Below, one piece after another: positions 36,564-46,159 of a DNA stretch of 64,000 nucleotides (its first letter is position 1; every line of letters starts with the position of its first letter). The DNA is from Akkermansia sp. GTDB taxonomy: Bacteria; Verrucomicrobiota; Verrucomicrobiia; Verrucomicrobiales; Akkermansiaceae. Location of the stretch: the NCBI GenBank assembly GCA_017435365.1, contig JAFSFD010000014.1, positions 1-64,000 on the forward strand, given 5' to 3'. The position numbers and the translations under genes are program-made. The notes beneath the pieces are model-generated. The model was not told the DNA's origin. It was given only the letters and a program-made list of their open reading frames with translations, and did no database searches.

Positions 36564-37388
36564 TCAGAGTCTGCGGCCGAAAGCCAGGCGGTCGTATTGC
36601 TCGTTGGCGTAGCGGTGCTGCGGGTGGCTGGTGCGCATGTAGGCCTCGTGCAGCGGGTGCGTGGGGTCGTGGGCGATGCGGTGGGCCTCCTTTTTGCCAT
36701 CCGGCTGGGAGCCGGTGTGCAGCGGTGCTTCATCCATGAGCCCGGCGGCTTCCAGCAGCAGCTTGGCGAAGTCCGGATTGGCGCGCAGGGCCGGATTCTC
36801 CACGAGGGATTGCACATCCACCCCGGCGCGTTCGCCCATGGTGTGCAGGAAGGATTCAATCGTCCTCAGGTTATCCTCATAGGCGCTGCCCCAGTCCTGC
36901 TGCAGGGCGGCATCTGCCTGCTGGATGGCCTGGGCATTTTCCTGCCGGCAGCGTTCCATGAAGCGGCGGCCTTCGGCGGTGTAGCGCTCGGCCAGTGCTG
37001 CCAGTGCCCTGGGCGGCACGCCGTATTCATAGGCCACGCTGCTCAGCTGGCTCACCAGCTCCTCGTTCCAGAGTTCATCCGGGGTATCCTGCGGGCGCTC
37101 CAGGGTGAACTCTTCCGCCGTGGCAGGCAGGCCGACCGCAGCGCGGAAGGCGGCCATGCGGGCGGCATCTGCCGTGTCCGGGTAGCCGCGCAGTTTTTCC
37201 AGGTTGGCGTAGCTCTTGGCCAGGGCCTCGGGGCGGTGGAATTTGGAGAGCGTGGCGGCATAGGGCCTGAGCTCCTCAAAGCGGGTGAACCAGCCCGGGG
37301 AGAAAGCGCCGTCCTCGCGCATGAGCGGTGCGGGCAATTCCTCTGCGGGCAGGGGGGTGGGTACTGTTTCTTCTTCGGTATTATCCAT
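36564..37388 (-). CDS. podovirus-type scaffolding protein
   Basis: A 274-residue acidic, helix-rich protein whose look and place match the capsid-assembly scaffold of T7-like and BPP-1-like podoviruses (after the portal gene, before the capsid gene). Features are an acidic disordered N-terminus, GYPDTADAARMAAFRAAVGLP, then QDTPDELWNE and long helices. A VGLP..AEEF...P segment is common in phage scaffolds of this group. Its ATG overlaps the end of the Bbp19-like gene by 8 bp. No capsid gene follows: the operon stops here. Confidence 0.65.
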   Translation of the reverse strand: MDNTEEETVPTPLPAEELPAPLMREDGAFSPGWFTRFEELRPYAATLSKFHRPEALAKSYANLEKLRGYPDTADAARMAAFRAAVGLPATAEEFTLERPQDTPDELWNEELVSQLSSVAYEYGVPPRALAALAERYTAEGRRFMERCRQENAQAIQQADAALQQDWGSAYEDNLRTIESFLHTMGERAGVDVQSLVENPALRANPDFAKLLLEAAGLMDEAPLHTGSQPDGKKEAHRIAHDPTHPLHEAYMRTSHPQHRYANEQYDRLAFGRRL

Positions 37389-37656
37389 CTTGTTCTTGTT
37401 GTGTTTGTGTTGCTTCCTGCCGGGCCAGCTCCAGCTGGTGGCGGATTACCAGGAAGATTTCGCGGTGCGCATCGCGACGCATGGCATCCAGCGGGTCGTA
37501 GCTCCCGGCCTTGCCCTGGAACACGGGCAGCTGGGTCTCGAAGCGGTGCTCCAGGTCGCGCAGCACCTGCTCCCCCACCGGGGTGGAGAAGAGGGCAAGC
37601 AAGCGCCGGCGTTCCTCGCGGGCCTGTTCCAGTTGCGGGTTGCGGCGGTATATCAT
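37381..37656 (-). CDS. Bbp19-like small phage protein
   Basis: A 91-residue protein similar in pattern to the Bbp19 domain of podoviruses: FSTPVGEQVLRDLEHRF near residues 23-39, a D-rich middle, then RRDAHREIFLVIRHQLELA. Its role is not established; it is usually encoded between portal and scaffold, as here. It overlaps the portal stop by 4 bp (ATGA), indicating coupled translation. Confidence 0.6.
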   Translation of the reverse strand: MIYRRNPQLEQAREERRRLLALFSTPVGEQVLRDLEHRFETQLPVFQGKAGSYDPLDAMRRDAHREIFLVIRHQLELARQEATQTQQEQDG

Positions 37657-39239
37657 GGCAGCGCGGGGGCGGGGACTTCTTGTTGTTGCTGTTGCAGCTG
37701 CTGGGCGGCGGCCTCGCGCTTGCGGCGCAGGCGCTTCACGGCCACTTCCGGGCGCAGGATGCCCTCCGGCACGCCGTCCATGCGGGCAGCGGTGCGGAAG
37801 GTGCGGTCCAGGTCCACATGGTCCAGCAGCGCGTTATCCAGCCCGGCCATGGCCTGCAGCCGCTGAAGGGTGCGGGCTATGCCCTCCGACTGCAGGCGGC
37901 GCATGACCATGGCGATGCGGCCCTGGTACACAACCTGCGGCAGCTCGATTTCCGGCTCGCCGTCCCGGTCTGCCTGCAGCACGGATGTGGGCGGCTGCGG
38001 GAAACGCCCCAGCCGGAAGAGCAGGGCAAACACGCGCTCCATGAGCGGGCGGAAATCGCTGGCAAAGAGCGTGAACGATGGCGAGAAGAGCATGACGCGC
38101 TCATTCTCGCGGGCGTAGACCTCGCTGGCGGTCATCTGCTGCTTGTGCTCGCTCCAGAGCTCCAGCATGGGCACGAAGAAAGCGCGGCGTATCGCTTCCT
38201 GCTTCTGCCGCAGGCGGTCCATGCCCACATCGTACCGCCCCTGGGTGGCCCATTCGCGCGGGAACCCCAGGCTGGCGCTCTCCGGGTTGATGAGGGTGCG
38301 CCCGCCGGCGCGTAAATCCACCTCACCGGATTGATTGGCCAGCTCCAGAATGCGGGGGAAGGCGGCTACTTCCCCCAGAAGATCCAGGATGCGGTTGAGG
38401 AATTGGGCCTGCCGGATATCCGGGTAGACGAGGCGGGCAGGGGAAAGCCCGTACACCCCCTCGCCCCAGCGCAGGAAACGCGTCACCATGTAGGGCATTT
38501 CGCGGTAGCCGCTTTCCTGCACGGTGCACTGGTCATCCAGGCAGTAGTAAATGCTCTCGAAGGGCATGTTGCGGGCGTTGTCGCGCTGGCGGTTGCGCCG
38601 GGCGCGTGGGCGCACCACATGCAGGAAGCGCAGCTCCCCCTCGTGCGGGTTGCGCGTGTTTTCCAGCATGGCGCGGCCGCGTGGGCCCAGGGCCTTGGCG
38701 CCGAACTTGGCCGCCGCCTGGTGCGGGGTGAAGGTGAACTCTCGCATGTAGGTATCAATCGCGCCTTCATCATTCTCCGCGCACACGAAATCCCCGCAGG
38801 GAATGTGGCGGAAAAGCAAGCCGCCGCTGCGCGTGCTGCCGCAGTACAGACTGCCGGTGCCCAGCCCCACGCGGTCCAGAAAGCACTCGTGCAGCTCGGT
38901 GTAGAAATTGCTCTGAGCCAGCTCGCGGTTGGCGATTTCGGAGCAGCGGTTGTACCAGGATTCTGCCTCATCCCCGGCATCCGGCAGCGGGCAGCTCCAT
39001 TTGAACCACAGCTCGTTGCTGGGAGTCAGGTAACTCATGTGGGCACTGGCCAGTTTCTGGCAGGCTTCCACTGCCGTGGTGTCGCTCAGCTGGTGGGCGG
39101 CTGGTGGTTCGGCGGAGTCGTAGCCGCTCTGGGTGTGCTGGCGGTCTGGCAGCACATAGTGCCGCAGGGTTTCCCACCAGCTCTCCCAGGGGGCTCGGGC
39201 GGCTTTCAGACTCTGGTAGTTGTGGAGTATCGTCTGCAT
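37653..39239 (-). CDS. podovirus head-tail connector (portal) protein
   Basis: A 528-residue portal of the T7 gp8/podovirus connector family, which forms the dodecameric ring through which DNA enters the head. Recognisable are the N-terminal WESWWETLRHYVLPDR, the long region with SHMSYLTP-like ASAHMSYLTPSNELWF, VYGLSPARLVYPDIRQAQFLN and QMTASEVYARENER (family 'TA.Ev..r..E'). It ends in a Gln-rich tail. The frame is fully open, with no decay. No large terminase gene is adjacent. The start overlaps the TGA of the preceding small gene (TGATG). Confidence 0.85.
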   Translation of the reverse strand: MQTILHNYQSLKAARAPWESWWETLRHYVLPDRQHTQSGYDSAEPPAAHQLSDTTAVEACQKLASAHMSYLTPSNELWFKWSCPLPDAGDEAESWYNRCSEIANRELAQSNFYTELHECFLDRVGLGTGSLYCGSTRSGGLLFRHIPCGDFVCAENDEGAIDTYMREFTFTPHQAAAKFGAKALGPRGRAMLENTRNPHEGELRFLHVVRPRARRNRQRDNARNMPFESIYYCLDDQCTVQESGYREMPYMVTRFLRWGEGVYGLSPARLVYPDIRQAQFLNRILDLLGEVAAFPRILELANQSGEVDLRAGGRTLINPESASLGFPREWATQGRYDVGMDRLRQKQEAIRRAFFVPMLELWSEHKQQMTASEVYARENERVMLFSPSFTLFASDFRPLMERVFALLFRLGRFPQPPTSVLQADRDGEPEIELPQVVYQGRIAMVMRRLQSEGIARTLQRLQAMAGLDNALLDHVDLDRTFRTAARMDGVPEGILRPEVAVKRLRRKREAAAQQLQQQQQEVPAPALP

Positions 39240-39439
39240 CAGCCCAGGGTGGAGTTGGCGGAATCTGCCGTGGCGGTGGTTTCCTTGCGGCGGTGAGCGC
39301 GCAGGATGGTGGAGAGAAGCCCTTTTTTCTGGGCGTTGGCCTGGTCAGTGGCCTGCTGTGATTCCCCGGCGGTGGTCTGCGTCACCACAGGAATCGTGTT
39401 GGTGGCGGCGTGGTAGTTGGTGGAGCTGCTGAATCCCAT
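39239..39439 (-). CDS. small phage-module protein, unknown
   Basis: A 66-residue Thr/Ala/Gln-rich protein (MGFSSSTNYH start, KKGLLSTILRAHRRKE near the end). No homology recognised. Its stop shares bases with the portal start, so it belongs to the same transcript. Small proteins at this place in podoviruses are often tail-assembly or internal head factors, but I cannot assign one. Confidence 0.5.
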   Translation of the reverse strand: MGFSSSTNYHAATNTIPVVTQTTAGESQQATDQANAQKKGLLSTILRAHRRKETTATADSANSTLG

Positions 39440-39461
39440 AATCGTCTGTTTGTTGAGTGTG

Positions 39462-39812
39462 TTAATGCAGAAGGAACGCCTGCCAGGGGTGGCGGTGCGG
39501 AGCCGGGGCGCGCAGCCCGCGCTGGAAACAGAGCCAGCGCAGCGGGGGCAGGGTGGCAGCCATGCGGCGGGCCAGCCGCAAATCCCCCACCAGCAGGTGG
39601 ATGTACCAGGCATCCGCCGCAGGCGAAATGAGGGCAAGCTCCGTCCACTGCTCCGGTGCGTTGCTGCATACCGGTTTCATGAGCACCACCAGCCGGGGCA
39701 TGAGCAGCACAATCCCCTGCGGGTGTGCGGCCAGGGCTGCAAGGTCGGTTTCCATATCCCGCCCGGCGGCCCGGTAATATTCCCATGCCCGGTCTCTGGC
39801 ATCTGCGTTCAT
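39462..39812 (-). CDS. phage-module protein of unknown function
   Basis: A 116-residue protein, first gene of the minus-strand phage-like operon. It contains VLLMPRLVVLMKPV, a W-rich AWYIHLLVGDLRLARRMAATLPPLRWLCF segment in two parts and an Arg/His-rich end. The general pattern (a few short strands, then a basic W-F-rich end) recalls small acetyltransferase-like podovirus proteins, but I cannot confirm it. It is divergent from the adaptor gene at 39963 across a 150-bp gap. Confidence 0.5.
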   Translation of the reverse strand: MNADARDRAWEYYRAAGRDMETDLAALAAHPQGIVLLMPRLVVLMKPVCSNAPEQWTELALISPAADAWYIHLLVGDLRLARRMAATLPPLRWLCFQRGLRAPAPHRHPWQAFLLH

Positions 39813-39962
39813 GCGGCAGACTCTACCCCACTGCCCCCTGCCGGTGCCAGTTTATTCGGAAAGGGGCGACTGCGTTCCGCGCGAAACGGTGTGTCCCGTC
39901 TCCGAATCATGTTGATGCATGCGCCACCTTGTGGCACCCTGTGGGGCGCACACTGAACCGAT

Positions 39963-40565
39963 ATGTCAACTACTACACCCCCGAATACCGCGCCTACCCC
40001 GCTGGATATCTGCAACCTGGCCCTCAGCCGGCTGGGTGAATCGCCCATCCCCGCTCTGGATTCAAACGGCAGCCTGCCCTCCCGCATGTGCTACATGCAC
40101 TACCACCCCGTGCGCCGCGAGGTGCTCTGCGCGAACCGCTGGAGCTTTGCCACCGTTACCACCACCCTGCAGAGCGCCGAGGAAAGCACCGGCGACGATG
40201 CCCACCAGCTGCGCCACAGCCTGCCTGCCGATTGCCTGCGCGTGCTCGGGGTGAACAGCCGCAGCTGGACCCTCCGAGGCCGCGCGGTCTACTGCCCGGC
40301 CCGCACCATCCGCCTGCTGTACATTGCGGATGTGGAGGATACCGCCCTCTTTGAGCCGCTTTTTGTGGAGGCACTGGTGCTGCGCCTGGCCTGGAAACTC
40401 TGCATCCCCCTCATCAACAGCACCACCGCCCGCCAGGCGCTGGGCGAGGAATACCAGCGCATCGCGCTTCCCCAGGCGGCTCATTTCAACGCCGTGCAGC
40501 ACATGTCGAATGACTCCCACCCCCTCTACCGCCTGTGGCGCCGGAGCATGAGCAGCCAGGATTAA
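39963..40565 (+). CDS. tail tubular protein A / head-tail adaptor-like
   Basis: A 200-residue protein matching the T7 gp11-type adaptor that joins portal and tail in podoviruses. The N-terminal LDICNLALSRLGESPI and the YHPVRREVLCANRWSFA helix are the family's landmarks, and the C-terminal part has FVEALVLRLAWKLCIPL. It is on the opposite strand from the portal operon, whereas phages keep these genes in one direction, so the module has been rearranged or re-regulated. Frame intact. Confidence 0.7.
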   Translation: MSTTTPPNTAPTPLDICNLALSRLGESPIPALDSNGSLPSRMCYMHYHPVRREVLCANRWSFATVTTTLQSAEESTGDDAHQLRHSLPADCLRVLGVNSRSWTLRGRAVYCPARTIRLLYIADVEDTALFEPLFVEALVLRLAWKLCIPLINSTTARQALGEEYQRIALPQAAHFNAVQHMSNDSHPLYRLWRRSMSSQD

Positions 40566-40580
40566 GCTCTTGACCATCTT

Positions 40581-40874
40581 ATGAAAGCAATTGATTTCAC
40601 GTGTCGTTTCCTCAGCCGCGTGCAGCGGGATGAGCTCTCGCCTGCCGCGCGCCTGGTGCTCGTGGCCGTAGCCGCCGGGCTGGAGGATAAGAATGATATC
40701 GCTCACGAAACCGGGCTTTCCCACAGCGTGTGCACCACCCAGCTGCGCCACCTGGAGAAACTGGGCGAAATCCGCTGCGTAAGCCTCCTGGCAGAGCGCT
40801 ATGTGCCGGCCCCTGCCGGCAAGGAACGCCTGCGCCGCTGGTTCAATTTCCACACCCCCGCTGCCCATGGCTAA
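40581..40874 (+). CDS. winged-helix DNA-binding protein
   Basis: A 97-residue protein with a MarR/ArsR-like winged helix: helices around LSPAARLVLVAVAAGL, a helix-turn-helix KNDIAHETGLSHSVCTTQLRHLEKLGEI (recognition helix near residues 45-60) and a wing before the C-terminus. It may regulate the phage-like module or replace a small-terminase DNA-binding domain. It begins 15 bp after the adaptor gene and overlaps the next gene by 8 bp. Confidence 0.6.
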   Translation: MKAIDFTCRFLSRVQRDELSPAARLVLVAVAAGLEDKNDIAHETGLSHSVCTTQLRHLEKLGEIRCVSLLAERYVPAPAGKERLRRWFNFHTPAAHG

Positions 40875-41091
40875 GAAGAAGTTCCTGAGCATTGAGGAAA
40901 AGCGCACCTGGCTGGCCGGCATCTTCCGGGATACCAGTGGTGAGTTCAGCCAGGCAGATAAGTTCAAGGCCATGATTGAGGACACCCGCCTGGCCATGCT
41001 CGAAGCCGAGGCTGCCAAACCTGCCGAACCCGCCCTCCCCGGCATCCCAGCCGCCCTCCTCGCGCACCTCCCACCGCCGCTGCATTCTTAA
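40867..41091 (+). CDS. short terminase-small-subunit-like protein
   Basis: A 74-residue ORF (MAKKKFLSIEEKRTWLAGIF start) whose pattern 'S..EKR.WLA.I.R...GE... K..A....L.....A' resembles the C-terminal half of small terminases from podovirus-like phages. It starts inside the end of the winged-helix gene, so the two together could make a split TerS (DNA-binding part plus oligomerisation part). The Pro-rich tail is probably disordered. No large terminase follows. Confidence 0.45.
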   Translation: MAKKKFLSIEEKRTWLAGIFRDTSGEFSQADKFKAMIEDTRLAMLEAEAAKPAEPALPGIPAALLAHLPPPLHS

Positions 41092-43911: not shown

Positions 43912-44922
43912 TCACGCCGCCTGTGTCCAGAACCTTTTGGCATTCACCACGCCGCGTTGATCCACGTAGCGAGTGCGGAGTAGTGTCGAATCCCGGTGCC
44001 CGATTTCACATTGCAGCTCGGAGAAAGAGCGAAAGTGGCTCAGGTGATAGCTCGCGAAGGTGTGGCGCAGCGCATCCGGGCTCCATCGGTGGGCTCCTTC
44101 CCACCCCGCCTTCTGTCGCAGAAGTCGCCAGTGTTTCAACCAATTGGTTGGGCAGATGAAGGAATTGGCGGCGCCTTGTCTTGCCCTGAGTATGTGCAGC
44201 AGAGGCGCGTGTATGCTTACTCGGCGAGCCCCACCGGTCTTGCTGTGCCGGGGCTGGATGTATATGGCACAGTTGCTCAGATCAACCTGGTCCCATGTGA
44301 GTCGGGCCACTTCGTGCGGCCGGATGCCGGCATAGAGCATCATGCCGACAGCGGCCAGGCAATTCCCACCTTCGTGTTTTCGGGCTGTGTTCATGATGTT
44401 TGTGATTTCTTCAGGTGTCAGAATAGGAAGTCTGCCTTCCTGAACTCTCGGTGCCTCTACTGACGAAACGGGATTTGCATCGCACCATCCCTTCCGTATG
44501 GCTGTGGAAAAGACCCCGCTGAGAATAGCGCGTGCTTTTCTCCGCTGGTGCAGGGAGTCAAAGGCCTTTTCCAACCATGCTGCACATTCTGCACTGCGAA
44601 TGCTGCGCACCCGTCGCTTCGCCAGTTCCGGATTCTGGCGTATCAACCGCTTGCAGAAATAACGGAAGTCCACCAGCGTGCGAACCCTGCGCCCTTTTCT
44701 TGCCTCCAGTGCCGCTTCAACAGCTTTGGTGAAACTCACCGTCTTCTCTTGCCTCCTTAGTTCCTGTTCCCCCGCATTCAGACATTTACGAGTCCTGAGT
44801 ATCTGCCCCCTGCCTTTTTCCAGTGCGTCCTTTGCTACCAGCGCCGCTTCGATGATATTTACTCCCGTGTTCTTCAAAATAATGACCGCTGCATATTCTT
44901 CTTCGGTTACTTCGTGATTCAT
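43912..44922 (-). CDS. tyrosine recombinase / integrase
   Basis: A 336-residue integrase. Catalytic residues are Arg201 (AGIRPHEVARL), Lys228 (HSKTGGA), Arg286 (DALRHTFASYH), His309 (EIGHRD) and Tyr319. The usual first His of H-x-x-R is Asp283, which I believe also occurs in some Verrucomicrobiota integrases. The N-terminal half holds the core DNA-binding domain (about 65-165). ATG 44922 (MNHEVTEEE) is preferred to 44967. It could have moved the acyltransferase next to it; attachment sites were not found. Confidence 0.85.
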   Translation of the reverse strand: MNHEVTEEEYAAVIILKNTGVNIIEAALVAKDALEKGRGQILRTRKCLNAGEQELRRQEKTVSFTKAVEAALEARKGRRVRTLVDFRYFCKRLIRQNPELAKRRVRSIRSAECAAWLEKAFDSLHQRRKARAILSGVFSTAIRKGWCDANPVSSVEAPRVQEGRLPILTPEEITNIMNTARKHEGGNCLAAVGMMLYAGIRPHEVARLTWDQVDLSNCAIYIQPRHSKTGGARRVSIHAPLLHILRARQGAANSFICPTNWLKHWRLLRQKAGWEGAHRWSPDALRHTFASYHLSHFRSFSELQCEIGHRDSTLLRTRYVDQRGVVNAKRFWTQAA

Positions 44923-45022
44923 GGATTGAATTGTAGTTGAGGTTTCTAAATGGGTATTCAAGCACAAAAATGCCTTTTACGTAATTAAAAAGTGAGAGGG
45001 GGTACAGAGTTCCATAAAATGG

Positions 45023-46159
45023 ATGAATTACCGTTTTGTAATCTATTTATTATGTTTATGTAGCATCTATATACTTGCCCATTTAGAATGGGTAATATAT
45101 GGGGCTATGAGTAAACAAATGTCTGTGACTCCACGCAAGGAACAGGGAAAAAGTTATTCTATCATCTTTGATTATCTTCGGGCATTTGCCATGTTGGGTG
45201 TTCTGGCTGTGCATTTGTCCCAGCAGTTCCCTATGCCTCGGCTGATGAAAGAAGTTGCAGGTATGGGAGCTTTTTGTGTCCAGATTTTTTTCGTTATCAG
45301 TGCTTATCTGGGCTGTTCTTATTTTTTCAGGCCGGGTGCGACAATTGGTCAATACTACAGGAAACGGGCTCTTCGTATATTACCCACCTACTACGCAGCA
45401 ATAGTGGCTGCCATGGTGTACATCGAGTTCTTTACGAAAGGGTATAACGCCGATGTATTCCACCTGGGGTGGTTGCGTTATTTCCTTGGACTCAACACAA
45501 TTTTGCCGTCCGTTGACTTCTGGCAGTGGAATAATGCGTTTGGCTTCTGGACAATGACCAATTTCATTGTCTTCTATGCAATCATTCCGATGGTTATCAA
45601 GTTTGTTGACACTTGGAGAAAAAGTGTGGCCCTTTTCCTCCTCTGTTATATTGCTGCAGTAATTGTACGTCTGCTTATAAAGTTCTATATTTCCGAGGCT
45701 CCTTTTCATCAACTTGATTCTATGTTGATGTGGAGTCCTCTGGTGCAGATGCAGCACTTTGCTCTGGGTATGATGACTTATTTCGCGGTGCGAGACAGTA
45801 AGACAAGCCTTGCGGCTATTATGCTTATCTGCATGGCAATGCTACCCTGCGGATTTTGCCCGCCCCCGATGCTTTTTGCAATTCTGACGTGTCTTTTCAT
45901 TCTTTCAGTTAAAGAGAGAGATGTGAATATAATGGGCGCTCCCAGAAAATGCTTGCAATTTGTTGCAAAATACAGCTTTCACGTTTATTTGACTCACCTT
46001 TTAGCATTAGCGATAGGTCAGCAGATAGCAGTTGCACTCTGCGCACCTTCGACTGTCTGCTTTTATATGGTCAAACTTTTCGTGTTTATCGTGGCCACGT
46101 TATTGTTCTGTTGTTTCTTGGAGCTTGCGCAGAGAACTGCCAATAAACTATTTTCATAA
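45023..46159 (+). CDS. acyltransferase-3 family membrane protein
   Basis: A 378-residue OafA/NolL-type membrane acyltransferase, expected to acetylate a surface polysaccharide. The family opening IFDYLRAFAMLGVLAVHLSQ (near residues 48-67, with the key Arg and His) and FFVISAYLGCSYFFRP are present, followed by about eight to ten hydrophobic helices. It is more AT-rich than its neighbours, suggesting transfer. The start is uncertain: the ATG at 45107 (MSKQMSV) would remove an N-terminal hydrophobic segment and follows a TAATAT box by 8 nt. Confidence 0.8.
   Translation: MNYRFVIYLLCLCSIYILAHLEWVIYGAMSKQMSVTPRKEQGKSYSIIFDYLRAFAMLGVLAVHLSQQFPMPRLMKEVAGMGAFCVQIFFVISAYLGCSYFFRPGATIGQYYRKRALRILPTYYAAIVAAMVYIEFFTKGYNADVFHLGWLRYFLGLNTILPSVDFWQWNNAFGFWTMTNFIVFYAIIPMVIKFVDTWRKSVALFLLCYIAAVIVRLLIKFYISEAPFHQLDSMLMWSPLVQMQHFALGMMTYFAVRDSKTSLAAIMLICMAMLPCGFCPPPMLFAILTCLFILSVKERDVNIMGAPRKCLQFVAKYSFHVYLTHLLALAIGQQIAVALCAPSTVCFYMVKLFVFIVATLLFCCFLELAQRTANKLFS

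Follow-up and report, generated by a model that had tools for sequence, protein, structure and literature searches.

What is a podovirus connector module doing among housekeeping genes, with no capsid or packaging motor beside it? The question is raised by a 64,000-nt stretch of DNA from Akkermansia sp. (hereinafter the window), part of a 2.5-Mb genome (G000). The module spans window positions 36564-41091 and contains two divergent operons, a leftward one encoding p116, a 66-aa protein, the portal, a Bbp19-like protein and a scaffold-like protein, and a rightward one encoding a gp11-like adaptor, a winged-helix (wHTH) protein and a short protein resembling the small terminase (TerS-like). No capsid, large terminase (TerL) or tail-tube (gp12) gene is seen in the window. 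An earlier note, made from the window alone, had offered several readings: a satellite or parasite of helper phage capsids, a gene-transfer-like particle, and a phage-interference device. The second is the one supported here, by the genome's own capsid and TerL, by co-occurrence and by selection. Specifically, the module is probably one of at least six scattered, jointly inherited loci of a podovirus-derived gene transfer agent (GTA) present in most Akkermansia.

Dispersed loci and their joint inheritance

The absence of a capsid gene and a packaging motor holds for the window but not for the genome. Profiles made from Akkermansia prophages were searched against genomes of the genus to find the major capsid protein (MCP), TerL and gp12, and the genome of the window encodes all three elsewhere: a diverged MCP (G000:C59:27229-28134; PF19821, 1.1e-76; phrog_3437), TerL (G000:C59:18948-20468; phrog_2, 3e-25) and the gp12 tail tube (G000:C60:10060-12033; phrog_376, 6e-117). 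The capsid and TerL, for which the earlier note had advised a search, are both diverged; like gp12, a gp14-like internal virion protein of 174 aa (phrog_418, 7e-10) and an endolysin relative (G000:C19:33899-34477), they lie off the window contig. A second endolysin copy (G000:C54:13129-13707) has 68% identity to the endolysin of genome G210. A Pfam Terminase_6N search of the same genome gave no match, a false negative, as the profile search found TerL.

The dispersed-type MCP, TerL and gp12 are present as one copy each in nearly every carrier genome. The MCP gene and the gp12 gene each stand alone, and the TerL operon holds two large conserved proteins of ~406-422 aa (B422) and 1711 aa (B1711), for which gene order and size let us guess at a gp15/gp16-like role. 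In the complete genome G119, the loci are hundreds of kb apart and spread over ~2 Mb (TerL, 463015; MCP, 1787047; gp14, 1892953; gp12, 2207863; endolysin, 2424211; portal, 2504214). Finished single-contig genomes show the same scatter, contrary to the prophage split by assembly error that the earlier note had allowed for. MCP and TerL are 7 kb apart in G000, TerL and gp12 are adjacent in G215, MCP and portal are 13 kb apart in G210, and the gp14-like gene is 1.5 kb from TerL in G147. Because the linkages differ between species, we infer that one ancestral cluster was broken up in different ways.

The module itself recurs throughout the genus as a divergent unit, with chromosomal flanks that vary between species, and it is therefore not a chance arrangement. 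All 19 genomes examined yielded the scaffold, Bbp19, portal, gp11 and TerS-like genes, and the p116, 66-aa and wHTH genes were detected by tblastn in part of these 19 only (p116 was aligned in 13). In the closest relatives, G199 and G211, the module still adjoins rpoC. The window-type portal copies returned by the portal search are all open, with 61-78% identity genus-wide, and occur singly in 58 of the 60 carrier genomes and in 0 of the 16 others. Searches of phage collections returned no near relative of the module, the best matches having 28% and 27% identity. A portal relative with 25% identity lies on the chromosome of the Rickettsia endosymbiont of Culicoides impunctatus (L139).

Six markers (portal, MCP, TerL, gp12, gp14-like and endolysin) were counted over 76 genomes of the genus, many of them fragmented. 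All six were found in 48 genomes, four or five in 12 and none in 16; no genome holds one to three. Pairwise Fisher p values for co-occurrence, which ignore the relatedness of the genomes, range from 6e-11 to 8e-14. The gp14-like gene is in 58/60 carriers and, among non-carriers, is present only as prophage copies; the endolysin gene is in 59/60 carriers, and the non-carriers G227 and G195 also hold one. In the rpoC tree, nine of the 16 non-carriers group in one supported clade that lies within the carriers, with G132 and G195 outside it, and three changes suffice. G132 contains a C-terminal TerL piece of 167 aa (G132:C33:36848-37351; E 1.6e-69), with the other markers not found in that genome; the piece may be a relic of a lost set or of a prophage. 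The gene trees resolve into the main groups of the rpoC tree, and distances track those of rpoC (Mantel r 0.78-0.96).

The dispersed genes are under purifying selection. The dN/dS ratios (NG86, with dS close to saturation in some pairs) are 0.03-0.12 for portal, 0.01-0.10 for MCP, 0.04-0.10 for TerL, 0.07-0.19 for scaffold and 0.05-0.19 for gp12, the TerL and gp12 values being taken after correction of false N-terminal extensions across a stop in pairs with G220 or G199. The ratios are within about 0.01-0.2 for gp11, 0.16-0.35 for p116 (13 genomes), 0.10-0.37 for the two large TerL-operon proteins and, for comparison, 0.01-0.04 for rpoC. Full-length frames are found in 18-19 genomes. The selection at which the earlier note had hinted is borne out by ratios of about 0.03-0.2 for portal, scaffold, MCP, TerL and gp11, and the frameshifts or deletions throughout the module that it had set against its own reading did not appear; the orthologues examined contain one premature stop, in gp11 of G071.

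TerL motifs are unchanged from those of prophage TerLs (KxRQxGxST, VSE, ESTHEGG, WDLGxSD, PHD and HxxDAxR). These motifs belong to the ATPase and the nuclease. Because both sets are kept, DNA packaging by the dispersed set is likely. Across 19 genomes the TerS-like protein has a length of 73-91 aa and no N-terminal helix-turn-helix (HTH); its hhalign match, weak at E 0.006, falls on residues 73-94 of a 165-aa TerS from a prophage, beyond the HTH. The small terminases of two known GTAs, RcGTA of Alphaproteobacteria and FpGTA of Faecalibacterium, also lack an HTH, and random packaging has been proposed to stem from this loss of sequence reading (PMC6854486, PMC12946183).

A GTA is recognised by caudoviricete-derived particles, mostly random host DNA in them, a fully endogenized genome, often at several loci, that cannot be packaged whole, mostly vertical inheritance and DNA delivery (PMC9662315). 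In Akkermansia, the six markers are separate in G119 and other genomes and have housekeeping flanks; trees, Mantel r and the lack of a near phage relative indicate mostly vertical inheritance; and portal, MCP, TerL, gp12, gp11, gp14-like and endolysin have sequence-level homology to tailed-phage proteins. Because the loci span ~2 Mb in G119, beyond any known headful, the set would presumably be unable to package its own genome in full. Judged by its sequence, the set resembles a GTA in how it would work, and its assignment to the GTAs is provisional.

A shared operator-like element

Between the two divergent operons of the module there is an operator-like element, GGAACGCAGTCGCCCC (39863..39878, minus strand), which faces the leftward operon, and beside it an imperfect mirror half, GAAACGGTGTGTCCC (39883-39897, plus strand). 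The pattern GGAAMGCAGWSNCCMC has four exact matches in the 2.5-Mb genome, upstream of the module, the TerL operon, MCP and gp12; it was built from those four loci, and the search is a specificity check, not independent evidence. In the window the pattern has a single match, even with two mismatches allowed. Folding of the DNA of the operator region indicates no unusual structure (z 0.58).

The upstream regions of unlinked loci are more alike within a genome than between distant genomes (module versus TerL operon, p 1e-7), and the shared element differs in sequence from genome to genome. Compared with other upstream regions of each genome, this excess stands out in G185, G210 and G199, is partly seen in G193, G169 and G000, and does not appear in the A. 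muciniphila group. In G210, an exact 15-mer occurs seven times in the genome (reversed control, 0), upstream of MCP, the module, the TerL operon, gp14 and RHS genes; a copy with a single mismatch is found at gp12. The element led to the gp14-like gene, and in G210 to a 72-aa one-helix holin-like protein, the gene of which overlaps that of an endolysin (phrog_17001, 2e-48). Since the gp14-like and endolysin genes were found through the element and then proved to co-occur genus-wide, they provide independent evidence for it.

The G210 element precedes one complete RHS gene and two loci with a similar start that run into contig ends. The corresponding RHS/YD-repeat proteins directly downstream of the operator are at L241:10032-15830 (plus strand), the right end of L242 and the left end of L240, and one of the genes sits behind a near-perfect dyad. 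The RHS proteins are possible receptor-binding or toxin parts of the regulon. The wHTH protein of the module would be the candidate regulator; it evolves fast (32-93% identity among orthologues), and a wHTH gene directly before TerS is also found in two prophages of the genus.

Proposed mechanism, rival explanations and known systems

The proposed scenario is as follows. A T7-like podovirus would have been captured by an Akkermansia ancestor, and chromosome rearrangement would have split the set, lost only in concert, into at least six loci. On induction, a regulator, possibly the module wHTH, would switch on the loci through the shared lineage-specific operator. The capsid protein and the scaffold would assemble on the portal, and TerL, together with a short TerS without a sequence-reading domain, would fill the heads with random host DNA by headful packaging. 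The gp11, gp12 and gp14-like proteins, perhaps with the two large TerL-operon proteins, would complete the short tail and ejection apparatus, and lysis would fall to the holin-like protein and the endolysin, so that particles could be produced and DNA transferred. It is possible, if on balance doubtful, that this GTA is atomised, its six or more loci being united solely by a regulator acting in trans and by an operator, the copies of which have diverged in step at the different loci of each lineage, and with a regulon that includes the RHS proteins as, maybe, receptor-binding or antagonistic parts of the particle.

Several observations weigh against a GTA. The identity of the TerS-like protein, given its position and the weak hhalign match, is tentative, and its members have no PHROG terminase match. 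No PDB or PHROG relative was found for B422 or B1711, and, apart possibly from the RHS proteins, no gene for a fibre or receptor-binding protein emerged. With simple alignment, the A. muciniphila group, G165, G220 and G071 yield no element common to the upstream regions, and 6 of 16 genomes have just some locus pairs that stand out. Dispersed and prophage copies were told apart by bit score plus our own judgement, and one non-carrier, G227, has an endolysin of carrier-grade identity. The gp11 gene of G071 (L039) has one in-frame stop near codon 108, the rest of the gene being intact.

The best surviving rival is a domesticated particle kept for killing or delivery, PBSX-like or RHS-carrying, with DNA packaging incidental or absent. 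The position of the G210 element upstream of RHS/YD-repeat genes favors it, but that link is found in one genome only. Moreover, a pure killing particle needs no packaging motor, whereas here TerL, one of the genes under strongest constraint, has all its ATPase and nuclease motifs, and neither portal nor scaffold has been lost. This rival is therefore unlikely.

A helper-dependent satellite, borrowing a helper phage capsid through its own portal and scaffold, is strongly disfavoured and very improbable. Capsid and TerL are indeed absent from the window exactly where they are expected, and complete related prophages in several genomes could serve as helpers. However, gp12, gp14 and a diverged capsid and TerL are encoded by the same genomes and accompany the module across the genus; the module brings along no integrase or replication gene; a related prophage portal is lacking in many carriers; and divergence tracks the host, with no sign of horizontal movement. 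A functional podovirus prophage fits no better, with housekeeping flanks, a lone MCP gene and no integrase beside the module at other loci. The phage-interference device, in which portal and scaffold proteins poison incoming podoviruses, has plausible targets in the related podovirus prophages of the genus but leaves the co-inherited capsid, TerL, tail tube, internal virion protein and lysis genes unexplained, and we give it hardly any credence. Functionless decay of prophage fragments, for which one could cite the scatter of the genes, the stop codon in gp11 of G071 and the lack of replication, integration and immunity genes beside them, is the least probable of all and in its simple form is refuted by full-length frames, dN/dS far below 1, genus-wide retention, joint loss and the persistence of a shared element ahead of unlinked loci.

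In kind, the nearest known system to the Akkermansia GTA proposed here is FpGTA. Like the Akkermansia set, it belongs to a gut commensal, has short-tailed-phage-like proteins and more than one structural locus, is conserved in its genus, and includes a holin and an endolysin; its TerS has no obvious DNA-binding domain, as proposed for the Akkermansia TerS-like protein (PMC12946183). In one strain, the two operons of FpGTA are separated by ~125 kb, and its capsid, portal and TerL genes are grouped (PMC12946183), whereas in Akkermansia, which is of a different phylum, the capsid gene is alone and at least six loci spread over ~2 Mb. Particles and packaged DNA have been shown for FpGTA, and its likeness to the gene set described here is drawn from published descriptions. 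RcGTA and its alphaproteobacterial relatives share vertical inheritance, co-divergence with the host and several loci, five in R. capsulatus (PMC9662315, PMC6854486), and the RcGTA TerS lacks an N-terminal DNA-binding domain, as proposed for the Akkermansia TerS-like protein (PMC6854486). RcGTA is long-tailed, with a single main head-tail cluster, whereas the Akkermansia set is podovirus-type and its core cluster is broken up. RcGTA, too, has dedicated lysis genes. PBSX of Bacillus subtilis is likewise a domesticated phage and, as cited in PMC12946183, packages pieces of the chromosome; by literature comparison, it is a single prophage-like region and is not dispersed.

The T7-like/Bbp-like podovirus prophages of Akkermansia (L054-L057, L060+L065, L068-L074) have homologous portal, scaffold, MCP, TerL, gp12 and, in part, gp11 and TerS. 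Their genes lie in one stretch, often beside an integrase, unlike those of the dispersed set, and identity between dispersed and prophage proteins is 28-40% for portal, 33-49% for TerL and 21-63% for MCP; the portal search with the window protein returned separate prophage copies at 26-42%. The podovirus prophages, these together with L051+L063 and L052+L062, are diverse and carry integrases and DNA methylases; their portals have about 30-40% identity among themselves, and some of them have widely separated scaffold and capsid genes. L051 and L052 were considered as capsid-less satellites with integrase, scaffold and portal and rejected, as TerL, gp12 and MCP lie 30-40 kb further in the same prophages.

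No description of a GTA in Akkermansia or Verrucomicrobiota was found in the open literature searched, mostly without subscription papers. If the proposal is correct, most of the genus, including a much-studied symbiont of the gut, has a system dedicated to exporting DNA, gene flow in Akkermansia would be read differently, and the set would be a second podovirus-type GTA after FpGTA, most likely by independent capture. Two questions become testable, namely how a multi-locus GTA is coordinated after its cluster has broken up and why whole sets are lost jointly. There is also a warning for annotation: without a profile search of the whole genome, such genes resemble stray prophage remnants, and the Pfam terminase search missed TerL.

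Genes and neighbours of the module in the window

The genes listed by the earlier note are intact. In the leftward operon (minus strand), p116, a conserved protein of 116 aa without a family match, is encoded first (39462..39812). The next gene, described earlier as encoding 132 aa, probably encodes 66 aa (39239..39439), its start being corrected from orthologues of 66-67 aa with the same start Met; the protein ends in 'STIL...TLG' and presumably resembles small proteins upstream of podovirus portals. The portal, or head-tail connector, follows (528 aa, 37653..39239; PF12236, 1.1e-125; phrog_332, 5e-92), then the Bbp19-like protein (91 aa, 37381..37656; PF25181, 5.1e-5, slightly below the family cut-off) and the scaffold-like protein (274 aa, 36564..37388), which is in the T7 gp9 position and is also protease-like (phrog_3742, 2.4e-27; phrog_458 protease, 9e-5). 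In the rightward operon (plus strand), the gp11-like head-tail adaptor (200 aa, 39963..40565; phrog_394 tail protein, 1.2e-38) precedes the wHTH protein (97 aa, 40581..40874; weak HTH matches alone, HTH_24 0.0026) and the tentative TerS-like protein (probably 74 aa, 40867..41091), which has no significant family match and the start of which was set from orthologues. A 92-aa frame at 39809-40087 (minus strand) is antisense to gp11.

The housekeeping genes that the earlier note saw around the module are confirmed, with rpoC and glycosyltransferase-like and lipoprotein-like genes on one side and yraN and rnhB on the other. In G119, a rubrerythrin-like protein with a weak EncFtn-like match (L033:5654-5995, minus strand) lies a few kb from the module.

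A tyrosine recombinase is close to the module in the window (43912-44967, minus strand) and was not found beside the module at other loci. Ahead of it are 11-bp inverted repeats, spaced 123 nt apart (44944-45088), that reach toward an acyltransferase at 45023, and the segment looks like an invertible promoter. Two recombinase paralogues in the same genome (L244, L249) have inverted repeats of 14-18 bp exactly 124 nt apart. Each inverted-repeat segment contains a sequence like the operator-like element described above, for example at window 44998-45013 (minus strand).

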